Shown: positions 14,988 through 21,442 of the stretch, piece by piece
How positions within the stretch are numbered: the first letter of the stretch is position 1
How the letters are laid out: every line of letters starts with the position of its first letter
From: an uncultured Eubacteriales bacterium
GTDB taxonomy: Bacteria > Bacillota > Clostridia > Christensenellales > Aristaeellaceae
Reading direction: 5' to 3'
DNA length: 43,089 nucleotides
Assembly: GCA_902790495.1 (NCBI GenBank)
Contig: CADASK010000025.1
Location: 1-43,089 of the forward strand
The notes under the pieces: model-generated
Database searches by the model: none
Told to the model about the DNA's origin: nothing
Seen by the model: the letters and a program-made list of their open reading frames with translations, nothing else
Made by a program: the position numbers and the translations under genes

Positions 14988-15042
14988 GGCATCGTTCTCC
15001 CGGAGGGGTGAACAAATTGAAAAGAAGAAGGAGATTCCCCTT

Positions 15043-15894
15043 ATGAAGAAGCTGCTTGCCATCGCCCTGACCGCCCTGCTGGTTCTGTCCCTGGCCGCGA
15101 CCGGCCTGGCCGACACCGTGACCATCGCCGTGCCCAACGACGCGACCAACGAGGGCCGCGCCCTGCTGCTGCTGCAGTCCGCCGGCGTGCTGACCCTGAA
15201 GGAGGACGCGGGCATCACCGCCCAGAAGAACGACGTGGCCGAGTTCAAGACCGCCGAGATCGACTTCAACGAGGTCGAGGCCGCCATGGTCGCCAACGTG
15301 CTGCCGGACGTGGACTACGCGATCATCAACAACAACTACGCCCTGGACTTCGGCCTGAATCCCGTGAAGGATTCCCTGCTGATCGAGGACGCGGATTCCC
15401 CCTACGTCAACGTAGTCTGCGTGAAGGAGGGCAACGAGACCAGCGATCTGGCCAAGGCCCTGGCCGCGGCCGTGCTGAGCCAGAAGGTGGCGGACTACAT
15501 CAACGCGACCTATGACGGCGCCGCCATCTCCACCGTGGCCGAGCCCACCGACGGCTTCGACGCCACCGTGGACTACGCCGCTCTGGCCGGCCAGACCATC
15601 TCCATCGCCTGCTCGCCCACGCCCCACGCCCAGATCCTGAAGGTGGCGGCCGAGATCCTGGCGGAGAAGGACATCAAGCTGGACATCATCGAGTTCACCG
15701 ACTACGTGCAGCCCAACAGCGTGGTGGAGGCCGGCGACGTGTTCGCCAACTACTTCGCCCATCAGCCATATCAGGACAACTTCAACGCCGAGAACGGCAC
15801 CCACCTGGTGACCATCGCCGGCGTGCACGTGGAGCCCATGGCCCTCTACGGCGGCAAGCAGGCCGACCTGACCGCCCTGGGAATCGCGAAGTAA
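15043..15894 (+). CDS. MetQ/NlpA-family substrate-binding protein, circularly permuted
   Basis: MetQ proteins capture methionine for the MetNI importer. This 283-residue protein has all family motifs but in swapped order. After a signal peptide (to about residue 23) it starts with what is normally the second half: AVPNDATNEGRALLLL, AIINNNYAL, SPYVNVV, SQKVADYI. From residue 184 comes what is normally the mature N-terminus: ISIACSPTPHAQIL, FTDYVQPN, ANYFAHQPYQDNF, VHVEPMALYG. Ligand-site residues expected in MetQ (Arg 39, Asn 96-98, Asn 123, His 240) are present. The lipobox Cys is missing (LAATGLA), so it is probably secreted rather than lipid-anchored. No MetN or MetI is nearby. A good AAGGAG site supports the start and a terminator follows. 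Ligand is inferred. Confidence 0.9.
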   Translation: MKKLLAIALTALLVLSLAATGLADTVTIAVPNDATNEGRALLLLQSAGVLTLKEDAGITAQKNDVAEFKTAEIDFNEVEAAMVANVLPDVDYAIINNNYALDFGLNPVKDSLLIEDADSPYVNVVCVKEGNETSDLAKALAAAVLSQKVADYINATYDGAAISTVAEPTDGFDATVDYAALAGQTISIACSPTPHAQILKVAAEILAEKDIKLDIIEFTDYVQPNSVVEAGDVFANYFAHQPYQDNFNAENGTHLVTIAGVHVEPMALYGGKQADLTALGIAK

Positions 15895-15920
15895 TCCGCA
15901 AAGCTCAAAGGAACCCATGC

Positions 15921-15951
15921 CCGACCCGGAACACTCCGGGCCGGGTTTTCT
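15921..15951 (+). terminator. intrinsic terminator after the MetQ-like gene
   Basis: GACCCGG (15923-15929) pairs with CCGGGTT (15941-15947), with an inner CCGG/CCGG, then TTTTC. It lies about 30 bases after the stop codon. Confidence 0.8.
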
Positions 15952-17584: not shown

Positions 17585-20500
17585 ATGAAGATTGATCTGA
17601 CCTGCCCGGTGGAGGTCTGGAGCTGCTCGCTCCCCAGCGGCGCATCCACCTCCAGCGAGCTGACCCTCTATAACCTGACGGAAAAAACCATCACCTCGGT
17701 GGAGGTGACCCTCCTGTTTGAAAACCAGGCGGGCGAGGAGCTGACGCGTCTGATGGAGCGCGTGCGCGGACTCCGCGGCGAGGAGGCCCGCACCTTTGAC
17801 ATGCGCATCCAGACGCCCAGGGACGTGCTGGCCATGAAGCCCCAGCGCCTGGAGGTGCTGGTGGAGAAGGTCTGGTACGACGACAACAGCGCCTGGCGCC
17901 GGGGCAAGAGCCCGCTGGTGGAGTACCGCCCCAACAAGCTGCCCCACGGCCGCGAGCTGGAGCGCCTGCGCTTCGTGACCGGCGACAAGGCCTCCGGCTA
18001 CCCGGAGGACCAGGGCCGCGTGTGGGTGTGCGTCTGCGGACGGCCCAACGCCGAGGACGCTGCGGTCTGCTCGCGCTGCCGCCGGGATAGGGAGACCGTG
18101 TTCAGCCGCTTCAGCCGTGAGGCGGTGGACGCCGCGGTGGCCGCCCACGAGGGCGAGCTGCAGCAGAAGGCCCGCACGGCCCGGGAGGAGAGCTCCAGGC
18201 CAGAGGAGGACAGCACCGTCCAGCCCAGGGCCATCTCCCGCCGCAAGCAGCACAAGGGGCTGGCCATCGCCTGCGCGGCCGTGCTGGCCGTGGGCGCGGC
18301 GGGCTGGGCCGGGGTGACCTACGGCCTGCCCTACCTGCGCTACCGCCAGGCCATCGGTCAGCTGGAGAGCGGAAAATGGAGCGAGGCCCAGGAGGCCTTC
18401 GAGGCCATGGGCGATTACCAGGACGCGCCGTCCTACCTGCTGCAGGCGAAATACGCCGGGGCCCAGGCGGCGCTGGAGGCGGGCGACGCCGCCAGCCTGA
18501 TCACCGCGAAGGAGCGCTTCCTGGCCCTGGGGGATTACAGCGACAGCGCCGCCCAGGCCCAGGAGGCGGATTACCGCCGCGCGGCCCTGCTCTTCGGCGA
18601 GGGTGAGATCAGCGAGGCCGCCGACCTCTACAAGGCGCTGGGCGACTACCGCGACAGCGCGGATCAGCTGACCCGCTGCGCCTATGAGAAGGCGCGCCAG
18701 CTGCTGGAGAGCGGCCGGTGGAACGAGGCCCACGAGGCCTTCGCCGCCCTGGGCGACTACGAGGACAGCGCGACCCTGGCCCGTGAGGCCTGGTACCGCC
18801 CGGCGAAGACCGCCCTGGACGTGGGCAATCCCGACGAGGCGCTGGCCTGGCTGGACAAGTGCGGGGACTACCTGGACACCGCCACACTGATCCACCGCGC
18901 CCACTACCTCAAGGGCGAACAGCTCTACGCCGCTGGGGAGATGGCGGCCGCCGGCGAGCAGTTCCTGCTGGCCGAGGGCTATGAGGACGCCCAGGAGCAG
19001 GCGAGGCTGTGCATCTACACGCCCGCCGTGCAGGCCATGGACGCGAAGGACTGGCAGGGCGCGAAGGAACTGCTGGAGCGGATTTCCGACTACCGGGACG
19101 CCGCCGCGCGCATCCGCCTGTGCACGATTCGCCTGGCCAGCGAGGCGCTGAAGAACCGCGAGTGGACCCAGGCCGCCGAGCTGCTGGCCTCCCTGCCGGA
19201 CGACGACCCGGAGGCCGACATCCTGCGCAAGGCCTGCCTCTACGCCCAGGCGGACGCCGCCCTGACCGACGGCGACCTGGAGGGCGCCCGGGAGGGCTTT
19301 GCCGCTTTAGGAGACTACCAGGACGCGCCGGAGCGGGTGCAGGCCATCGCCATGGCCCAGGCCCAGGCATTAGAGGACGCGGGCCGGCTGCAGGAGGCCG
19401 TGGAGGCCTACACGCGCCTGAGCGAGGGCGACGATGACGCAGCCGCCCGGGCCCAGGCCCTGCGCTACACCCTGGCCGGCCAGTACGCCGGCAGCGGCGA
19501 GTGGGTCAAGGCCGCCGAGCTCTACGCGGCCCTGGGCGACTACAAGGACAGCCGGGATCAGCTGACCGCCGTGCGCTACGGCATGGCGAAGTCTCTGCTG
19601 GCATCCGGCGACAGCGCGAGCGCCAGGCTGCTCTTCGCCCAGCTGGGCGACTACAGCGACGCCAAGGCGCAGCTGATCGCCTGCGACTACGCCGCCGCCG
19701 GGAAGCTCGCGGAGGAGAAGAAGTACACAGAGGCCGCGGAGGCCTTTGACGCCCTGGGCGATTACCGCGACGCGGCCGCCCAGGCTGTGCTCATGCGCTA
19801 CCGTCAGGCGGAAGCGCTGGAGAACGAGGGCAAGAATGAGGAAGCCCTGACCGCCTTCGAGGCCCTGGGCGATTACAGCAACGCCGCGGGCCGCGCGCTG
19901 AACGTGCGCTGGAAGCTGGCGCGCGCCTTGGACAGCGCCGGGAAGATCGAGGAGGCCATCGCGGCCTTTGAGGCCCTGGGCGACGCGGAGGGCGCGGCGG
20001 AGGAGGCCCTGCGCCTGCGCTATGAGCTGGCGGAGAAGTACCTGAAGAACGGCGAGACGGATCAGGCCATCGCGGCCTTTGAGGCCCTGGCGGATTACAG
20101 CGACAGCGTTGCGCGGGTGCGGGAGATCCGCATGGGACGCGCCCGGGAGTTGGCCGTCGCCGGCAAGGTGGAGGAGGCCATCGCGGCCTATGAGGCCTTG
20201 GGTGACGACGAGGAGGCCCAGACGGCGGCCCGGGAGCTGCGCTACACCAGCGCGGTGGAGCTGACCGAGGCGGGCGACCTGGCCGGGGCCGCGGCCCTCT
20301 ACGCGGCCATGACGGACGATGAGGAGGCCCAGTCCCGGGCGAAGAGCCTGCGGACGCAGCACGCCGAGAAGCTGGCGGAGGCCGGCGACTATGCCGGAGC
20401 CATCGCGGCCTACGGTCTGCTGGGGGACGATGTGCAGGCGCTCACGCGGATCAGAGAGCTGCGCCACCTGCAGGCGGACAGCCTGGAGGCGGCCGGGGAC

Positions 20501-21442
20501 CTGCGCGGGGCCATCACGGCCTACGAGGCCATGGAGGAGGACGAGACCGCCCTGACGCGGGTGAAGGAGCTGCGCACGGAGTTGGCCGCCGCGATGGAGG
20601 CGGAGGGCCGCTTCGACGAGGCTGCGGAGCTCTACACCGCCCTGGGCGAGACGGAGAAGGCGGACGCCGTGCGCTACGCCGCCGCGGAGGCGCTGCTGGC
20701 GGAGGGGAAGAAGACCGAGGCCGCCGCCGCCTTCGACGCCCTGGCGGAGGTGAAGGACGCCGCCGACCGGGCGAAGGACATCCGCAGAGAGATCGCCAAG
20801 GAGGCCCTGGAGGCCGGCGACTACGAGACGGCCATCGCCGCCTACCGGCAGGCCGGTGACGAGGCCGCCGCCGCGGAGGCCGTGATCCGGCAGGAGGACA
20901 GCGTGTGGGCCGCCCCGGCGGAGACCGCGCGGAAGGCCCTGGAGGCCGGGCGCTGGGCCCAGGCCGCCGCCACCCTGGACAAGGTGGACTGGAGCAGGCT
21001 GCCCGAGCGCTACGCCGATCTCGGCGAGACCTACATTCGGGCGTGCTACCTGGAGGGCTGCCGCCTGATGGACGGCGAGGACTTTGCGCGCGCCTACCCC
21101 TACCTGCAGCGCTGCGCGGGCTATGAGGACACCGACGAGCGCATGGCGCGCACGGGCTGGGCGATCCTTGGCACCTGGCGCGGGGACGGCCACACGCTGA
21201 TCCTGCGCGGGGACGGCACGGGCGCCGTGGACGGCGTGCCGATGGAATGGACGCTCAGCGGCTACAACCTGCAGATCGGTGAGGAGACCGCCTTCAAGCT
21301 GTCCCTGCTGCAGGGCGGGCTGCTCACCCTGCGCGACGTGCGCGGCGAGACGGAGGCCGTCTGGAGCCTGAAGCGCACCGCGCCGGACGCTGTGCTGCCG
21401 CTGCCCAGCGCCGCCCTGAGACTGGAGGTCGTGAAGCCGTGA
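17585..21442 (+). CDS. giant zinc-ribbon, single-pass membrane protein with about 24 TPR-like repeats
   Basis: A 1285-residue protein. Residues 1-115 form a beta-rich domain. A CxC...CxxC zinc ribbon (Cys 149, 151, 162, 165) follows. A basic stretch (219-224) precedes one membrane helix (about 225-246), suggesting N-in, C-out. Residues 253 to about 1170 are around 24 helical repeats of 36-38 residues, with core pattern Y..A..L...G...EA...F.ALGDY.DS.......R. Repeats 3-6 and 9-16 are most regular; later ones lose the GDY signature. A beta domain (about 1180-1285, starting GTWRGDGHTLIL) closes the protein. An AAGGAG site precedes the ATG. Its stop overlaps the next start by four bases. I infer a surface scaffold with a cytoplasmic sensing or docking head; the function is unknown. 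Confidence 0.88.
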   Translation: MKIDLTCPVEVWSCSLPSGASTSSELTLYNLTEKTITSVEVTLLFENQAGEELTRLMERVRGLRGEEARTFDMRIQTPRDVLAMKPQRLEVLVEKVWYDDNSAWRRGKSPLVEYRPNKLPHGRELERLRFVTGDKASGYPEDQGRVWVCVCGRPNAEDAAVCSRCRRDRETVFSRFSREAVDAAVAAHEGELQQKARTAREESSRPEEDSTVQPRAISRRKQHKGLAIACAAVLAVGAAGWAGVTYGLPYLRYRQAIGQLESGKWSEAQEAFEAMGDYQDAPSYLLQAKYAGAQAALEAGDAASLITAKERFLALGDYSDSAAQAQEADYRRAALLFGEGEISEAADLYKALGDYRDSADQLTRCAYEKARQLLESGRWNEAHEAFAALGDYEDSATLAREAWYRPAKTALDVGNPDEALAWLDKCGDYLDTATLIHRAHYLKGEQLYAAGEMAAAGEQFLLAEGYEDAQEQARLCIYTPAVQAMDAKDWQGAKELLERISDYRDAAARIRLCTIRLASEALKNREWTQAAELLASLPDDDPEADILRKACLYAQADAALTDGDLEGAREGFAALGDYQDAPERVQAIAMAQAQALEDAGRLQEAVEAYTRLSEGDDDAAARAQALRYTLAGQYAGSGEWVKAAELYAALGDYKDSRDQLTAVRYGMAKSLLASGDSASARLLFAQLGDYSDAKAQLIACDYAAAGKLAEEKKYTEAAEAFDALGDYRDAAAQAVLMRYRQAEALENEGKNEEALTAFEALGDYSNAAGRALNVRWKLARALDSAGKIEEAIAAFEALGDAEGAAEEALRLRYELAEKYLKNGETDQAIAAFEALADYSDSVARVREIRMGRARELAVAGKVEEAIAAYEALGDDEEAQTAARELRYTSAVELTEAGDLAGAAALYAAMTDDEEAQSRAKSLRTQHAEKLAEAGDYAGAIAAYGLLGDDVQALTRIRELRHLQADSLEAAGDLRGAITAYEAMEEDETALTRVKELRTELAAAMEAEGRFDEAAELYTALGETEKADAVRYAAAEALLAEGKKTEAAAAFDALAEVKDAADRAKDIRREIAKEALEAGDYETAIAAYRQAGDEAAAAEAVIRQEDSVWAAPAETARKALEAGRWAQAAATLDKVDWSRLPERYADLGETYIRACYLEGCRLMDGEDFARAYPYLQRCAGYEDTDERMARTGWAILGTWRGDGHTLILRGDGTGAVDGVPMEWTLSGYNLQIGEETAFKLSLLQGGLLTLRDVRGETEAVWSLKRTAPDAVLPLPSAALRLEVVKP

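Follow-up and report, generated by a model that had tools for sequence, protein, structure and literature searches.

The open reading frame (ORF) at positions 15043–15894 of the window, by which we mean the whole 43,089-nucleotide stretch from an uncultured Eubacteriales bacterium analysed here, encodes a MetQ/NlpA-type binding protein with swapped segments. With a probability of about 0.85, we read it as a naturally permuted MetQ: a secreted two-lobed protein that would close on methionine and deliver it to a MetN-MetI importer, the partner most likely being the metN-metI pair on contig C17 of the same genome.

The window protein belongs to one Pfam family only, PF03180 (E 1.3e-65; 221.3 bits against a cut-off of 27), which it matches in two stretches. 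Residues 22–162 correspond to profile positions 94–233, and residues 186–279 (window 15598–15879) correspond to positions 1–94. No Pfam family other than PF03180 was found at E up to 1, which gives no sign of homology to type I sugar-binding proteins. Using phmmer, 22 distinct PDB sequences were matched, all in two stretches; the order is swapped in both alignments shown. For a permutation-aware test, representatives were compared with the mature window protein and with a doubled copy of the same, one block being at least 85% of the representative's length. Against the mature protein, all 50 canonical MetQ representatives gave two swapped blocks and none gave one block; against the doubled protein, 49 of the 50 aligned as one block. 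The canonical Dysosmobacter gene (L166), for instance, reached E 2.8e-87 as one block, versus 2.0e-46 and 2.9e-35 as two. The permuted representatives (84, 3 and 8 from clades A, B and C, described below) aligned in one block without doubling. A sequence-only reading of this DNA had called the protein circularly permuted and proposed such an alignment as a check; the swapped order against 50 of 50 canonical representatives and the 49 single blocks on doubling bear it out. The identity between permuted and canonical proteins is 50–58% (three canonical genes). The TIGR00363 score of the window protein is 143.4 bits, 85 bits short of the cut-off of 228.85; order-sensitive tools under-score permuted metQ genes. 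The parts of the gene are as follows.

15028..15033, + strand: ribosome-binding site AAGGAG, read off the sequence
15043..15894, + strand: circularly permuted MetQ (clade A), 283 amino acids plus stop, from the ORF, Pfam, phmmer and the doubling test
15043..15111, + strand: signal peptide, residues 1–23, type-I-like site GLA|D, no Cys (rule-based call)
15112..15528, + strand: normally C-terminal segment (lobe 2 and return to lobe 1), residues 24–162, with R39, N96 and N123
15529..15594, + strand: new 22-residue linker STVAEPTDGFDATVDYAALAGQ, joining the old C-terminus to the old N-terminus, from clade A comparison
15595..15879, + strand: normally N-terminal segment (lobe 1), residues 185–279, with Y221, F238, H240 and Y243; it ends at the inter-lobe loop, the present cut
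15920..15949, + strand: inverted repeat CCCGACCCGGA-acac-TCCGGGCCGGG followed by TTTT, terminator-like, read off the sequence

The AlphaFold model of the window protein has a predicted local distance difference test score (pLDDT) of 95. The first half of the model superposes on MetQ over 142 residues at 1.2 Å; for the second half, the support is the sequence and the confident model. The superposition on MetQ that the sequence-only reading had proposed was thus obtained for the first half, and the second half is supported by sequence together with the pLDDT 95 model. The structure model of clade C was poor (pLDDT 55.5, 9 sequences) and was not used. A viral fold library returned distant, generic folds only.

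Permuted genes of this kind are widespread. MetQ genes were collected from 227 loci; after one partial-lobe ORF was dropped and identical ones were merged, 195 distinct genes remained (145 after clustering at 85%), and 133 of the 195 are permuted. Since the genes were gathered with permuted or MetQ profiles, the ratio of permuted to canonical genes is no prevalence. The carriers are many bacteria, mostly gut and rumen Clostridia. Counting the window's genome each time, full-length clade A matches were present in 15 of 396 genomes of the order (E 1e-60), 18 of 391 genomes of the class (E 1e-55; two half-length matches left out) and 3 of 299 genomes of the phylum; clade C was found in 26 of 200 genomes of the family (E 1e-40). 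Named carriers of clade A include Vescimonas fastidiosa, Oscillibacter sp. ER4 and a Faecalibacterium prausnitzii isolate, and Slackia faecicanis DSM 17537 carries clade B. Clade A also occurs on some metagenome-assembled contigs labelled Treponema, where binning errors are possible. No further clade B members were recognised in the 391 class genomes, all 18 matches, that in the window's own genome among them, lying in genomes already listed for clade A. Two near full-length, much weaker clade C matches (G147:C211:1632-2519 and G081:C50:15072-15902; E ~1e-92 and ~1e-91) perhaps represent a further sub-clade of permuted MetQ. At another locus (L220, 1-2382), a clade C permuted MetQ lies inside an unusually long 811-residue frame, which is either a fusion or merely an open upstream frame.

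These collections also settle whether the swapped order is an assembly or annotation artefact. The window's genome (G000) is split over 78 contigs, which leaves room for misassembly, and a rearrangement with a break near 15590 had been raised as a possible refutation of the permutation. The break is refuted by the 133 distinct permuted genes with the same motif order and by a 90%-identical permuted copy with the same neighbours in another genome of the genus (G010); with named isolates among the carriers, the probability of an artefact is negligible.

Clades A, B and C were named by linker length and operon order ahead of tree building. The linker is 22–23 residues long in 78 of the 84 clade A representatives (up to 27), 31–32 residues in clade C and 17–20 residues in clade B. 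In clade A, its length and a pattern like NPTDGYDxxVDYxALxG (window 15529-15594) are kept across distant bacteria, and it seems more conserved than a passive linker would need. In the members compared, all three clades have the cut in one short loop, between SLDAL/SLDEL and VAVPND. For the trees, the segments were realigned to a common order and the linkers were excluded; the first tree had 101 rows, with clade A thinned from 84 to 40, and the second had 73 rows, with six canonical and 22 clade A rows left out. In the 101-row tree, the three clades form separate groups among the canonical genes. Grouping of A, B and C as a single clade was rejected by the approximately unbiased (AU) test, with p values of 0.0028 (101 rows) and 2e-9 (73 rows, longest branches removed), as was a single clade of A and C (p 0.0012). 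A single clade of A and B is compatible with the data (p 0.26 and 0.46).

Because the single A+B+C clade is rejected and the cut lies in the same loop, the trees indicate that permutation at one inter-lobe loop arose at least twice. There were perhaps three independent permutations on the same tree evidence; three separate origins are not established, as the A+B clade was not rejected. In the 73-row tree, the support for clade B is lost (44/8), and the starred branches force two changes, not three. A sister relation between clade A and the canonical Dysosmobacter genes (98/90 in the 101-row tree) is gone in the 73-row tree and was not relied on. It could be argued instead that the permutation happened once, and that the canonical relatives of A and C are reversions or are misplaced in the tree; the shared loop, the compatible A+B clade and the long branches of clade C would fit. 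Beside the rejected A+B+C and A+C groupings, however, clade C groups with the canonical gene L046 in both trees (100/99 and 100/100), and among the matches listed the neighbouring genes agree: L046 metI is the closest to clade C metI outside the clade (56%, next 46%), and L046 metN is the closest canonical metN (51%, next 48%). A single origin is quite unlikely in our judgement.

The likely route starts with a tandem duplication of metQ. In-frame fusion of the two copies would follow, and trimming of both ends would then leave the present order of signal peptide, old C-terminal segment, linker and old N-terminal segment. The new termini would be placed in a 4–5 residue loop at the chain's first inter-lobe crossing. 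In type II binding proteins, the normal MetQ chain crosses the hinge twice; the permuted chain would cross it once, each lobe being one continuous stretch. On balance, we favour independent permutation at least twice, perhaps three times, in this same 4–5 residue loop, which would leave a single hinge crossing and shift the membrane tether away from lobe 1, to where lobe 2 begins. Tandem metQ genes are present in Campylobacter and Deinococcus records, which suggests a raw material for the duplication-and-trimming route. In one Campylobacter jejuni record (L165, 4118-6506), metN-metI is followed by a tandem run of three canonical MetQ genes.

The seven published methionine-contact residues, assigned by alignment, correspond to R39, N96, N123, Y221, F238, H240 and Y243 of the window protein. 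The expectation that the ligand-contact residues remain was correct: all seven are present and are identical in 95 of the 95 permuted representatives, whereas some change occurs at 6 of the 7 positions among the canonical representatives (n=50). Because these residues are invariant and metNI adjoins the gene in relatives, the window protein is most likely the methionine-binding component of a MetNI importer. Members of the MetQ/NlpA family are said to bind other ligands as well. A change of ligand, for example to another sulfur amino acid or a dipeptide, with the protein still serving the C17 MetNI, would agree with that range and with the lack of a methionine-responsive RNA in 8 sources; given seven contact residues unchanged in all 95 permuted representatives, we regard such a change as unlikely.

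The signal peptide described for the new N-terminus was confirmed by the rule-based call ending GLA|D, and the lipobox Cys of the family is absent as described, the first Cys of the window protein being residue 126. Within the window's family, a simple rule detects a lipobox in none of 25 clade A genes, none of 19 clade C genes and 3 of 33 canonical MetQ genes; among the 85 clade A genes without that family label, it detects one in 68. The latter group is mixed, as loci that came from the named-genome scan have no family annotation and likely family members (L095-L097, L100) are inside it. The simple rule undercounts, since L105, L133 and L153 are lipobox-like yet uncounted; it replaced a looser rule with 74 positives in 110 clade A genes, some of which owe this to a Cys upstream of an AxA site. 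Loss of the lipobox caused by permutation was rejected, because canonical MetQ of the family mostly lack it and 68 of 85 other clade A genes have it. Judged from these sequences, absence of the lipid anchor is a habit of the bacterial lineage, canonical MetQ included. By a looser rule, 12 of 19 SBP_bac_1 matches in the window's genome (L228-L246) show no lipobox, and 6 of the 7 flagged ones have an AxA site after the Cys; the N-termini of this set were chosen by rule, and some matches may not be binding proteins. The genome has four matches to Lgt homologues. An uncleaved signal peptide as the membrane anchor of the window protein is a possibility, and two relatives (L072 and L073) have apparent N-terminal membrane anchors instead. 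A Faecalibacterium permuted MetQ (L152, 3354-4136 and upstream) carries an apparent twin-arginine-like signal (TRRSFLK) plus a lipobox, and may be exported folded by the twin-arginine (Tat) pathway.

The statement that no MetN or MetI lies nearby also holds: six MetN/MetI queries gave no match in the window at E 0.01. In relatives, metN comes after the gene in 97 of 110 clade A cases and in 18 of 19 clade C cases, and metI comes before it in 3 of 4 clade B and 50 of 62 canonical cases; of the exceptions, 4 in A, 1 in B, 1 in C and 3 among the canonical genes are explained by contig edges. The permuted gene of clades A and C heads the metNI operon and is not at its end. Nine of the 110 clade A genes have no metNI within 1.5 kb, five of them in the window's genus. 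The window's genome carries two MetQ loci, both permuted and unlike each other, thus representing lineages A and C, and no canonical MetQ was found in it. The second locus (L056, 8280-9173, contig C50) is a clade C gene with a 31-residue linker, adjoining its own metN-metI. The genome has two NIL-domain MetN genes, one beside this clade C gene and the other on contig C17, where metN and then metI stand with no MetQ adjoining (L078, 6989-8733). The C17 metN shares 74–79% identity with metN from the closest clade A operons, 58% with Vescimonas metN and at most 55% with metN from the canonical-operon loci compared.

The related species G010 has the same split of metQ and metNI with the same genes around metQ, and G007 is likewise split; in G004 and G009, metN still adjoins the permuted metQ. 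Thus, the operon came apart within the window's genus, and the gene would have left its metNI operon in the window's species. G003 and G011 also have permuted metQ without adjoining metNI; C17-type metN was not found in G003 and lies at a contig end in G011. Because no canonical MetQ is found in the genome, the C17 metNI has no binding protein and the metN lineages match, the window MetQ is most likely the binding protein of the C17 metN-metI pair after the operon split, as far as gene content and sequence can tell.

From the unlipidated, orphan form, the sequence-only reading had suggested signalling or a different transporter. A secreted permuted MetQ that senses methionine for signalling or serves a non-MetNI transporter would be consistent with a gene alone in the window, without lipobox and with a terminator-like repeat behind it, and with the 9 of 110 clade A genes lacking metNI within 1.5 kb, 5 of the 9 in the window's genus. 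This suggestion did not hold up against metN after 97 of 110 clade A genes, the matching metNI pair without adjoining MetQ in the same genome, the invariant contact residues and the family-wide absence of the lipobox. No sensor partner was recognised among the 8 nearby ORFs, though the 6 without family leave room. With no recognised partner nearby and the operon association in relatives, a signalling role was rejected, and an orphan receptor of either kind is very unlikely.

Several points weigh against the permuted, MetNI-serving MetQ that we prefer. Foldseek and VIA-align follow chain order, and the superposition covers the first half of the permuted model. No known riboswitch was found by Rfam near these genes in 8 sources, one tRNA being the only match, and no fused tandem MetQ intermediate was found among the ORFs of 220 loci. 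Contig C17 ends ~150 bases past metI in a genome that is 94.5% complete, so an extra metQ in an assembly gap is possible. An unanchored window protein would need some means of staying near the membrane; in Neisseria meningitidis, secreted unlipidated MetQ is reported to have barely affected its transporter, and MetQ with a retained signal peptide to have partly stimulated it (PMC8416018).

Around the gene, families were assigned in 2 of 8 neighbouring ORFs scanned, and none in the other 6. The nearest gene upstream encodes a glycoside hydrolase of family 31 (GH31). Downstream, window 17585-21442 holds a 1285-residue ORF whose product has TPR repeats and a stretch resembling YbgF; this ORF is found beside the gene in G010 too. 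The inverted repeat at 15920..15949 suggests, from its sequence, an end of the transcript; it is missing from the output of a consensus terminator scan that demands a minimum of 5 T.

Like canonical MetQ/NlpA (PF03180, TIGR00363; structures such as 4k3f, 4ib2 and 6cvl), the window protein is homologous over both segments, its first half being 45–47% identical to 4k3f and 4ib2, has the same contact residues and shows the metNI association in relatives of its gene. Different from canonical MetQ/NlpA, its segments are swapped, with a new 22-residue linker and a cut in the inter-lobe loop; there is no lipobox in its lineage, the score is under the TIGR00363 cut-off and metNI is not in the same operon.

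Natural permuted binding proteins are already known; in MetQ, the recurrence at one site stands out. One report describes TpMglB-2 (Tp0684) as a circularly permuted glucose-binding protein, proposed as 'type Ic'; homologues occur in treponemes and in Gram-positive bacteria, and the protein is reported to have kept glucose binding and to change its conformation with the ligand (PMC4990184). TpMglB-2 and the window protein are both binding proteins permuted in nature; TpMglB-2 differs in its type I fold and sugar ligand. The cut in TpMglB-2 lies inside the N lobe and adds a fourth hinge crossing; in the window protein, it lies at the hinge, and one of the two crossings would be lost. Among the glycine-betaine-binding proteins, OpuAC and ProX included, some were reported to be circular permutants of each other (PMC2395249); those comparisons are at <24% identity, versus 50–58% for permuted and canonical MetQ (three canonical genes), which is close enough for the MetQ events to be placed on a tree. 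A naturally permuted MetQ is not described in the literature searched, most subscription journals being outside its coverage. One match concerns, by its accessible portion, an Escherichia coli MetQ sensor, and work on permuted periplasmic binding proteins among the matches listed appears to be sensor engineering.

Natural permutants often separate proteins so far apart that placing the event is difficult. Permuted and normal MetQ are up to 58% identical, have common ligand residues and partner genes, and changed at least twice at one site. With such close pairs, the effect of permutation on hinge motion, ligand affinity and docking to the ATP-binding cassette (ABC) importer becomes testable, and they also allow a test of whether re-cutting is adaptive. 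If true, repeated fixation would mean that the permuted form is favoured, for example through hinge stiffness or docking geometry from the membrane. Permuted MetQ shows how evolution can re-cut a functioning protein while its likely role is kept.
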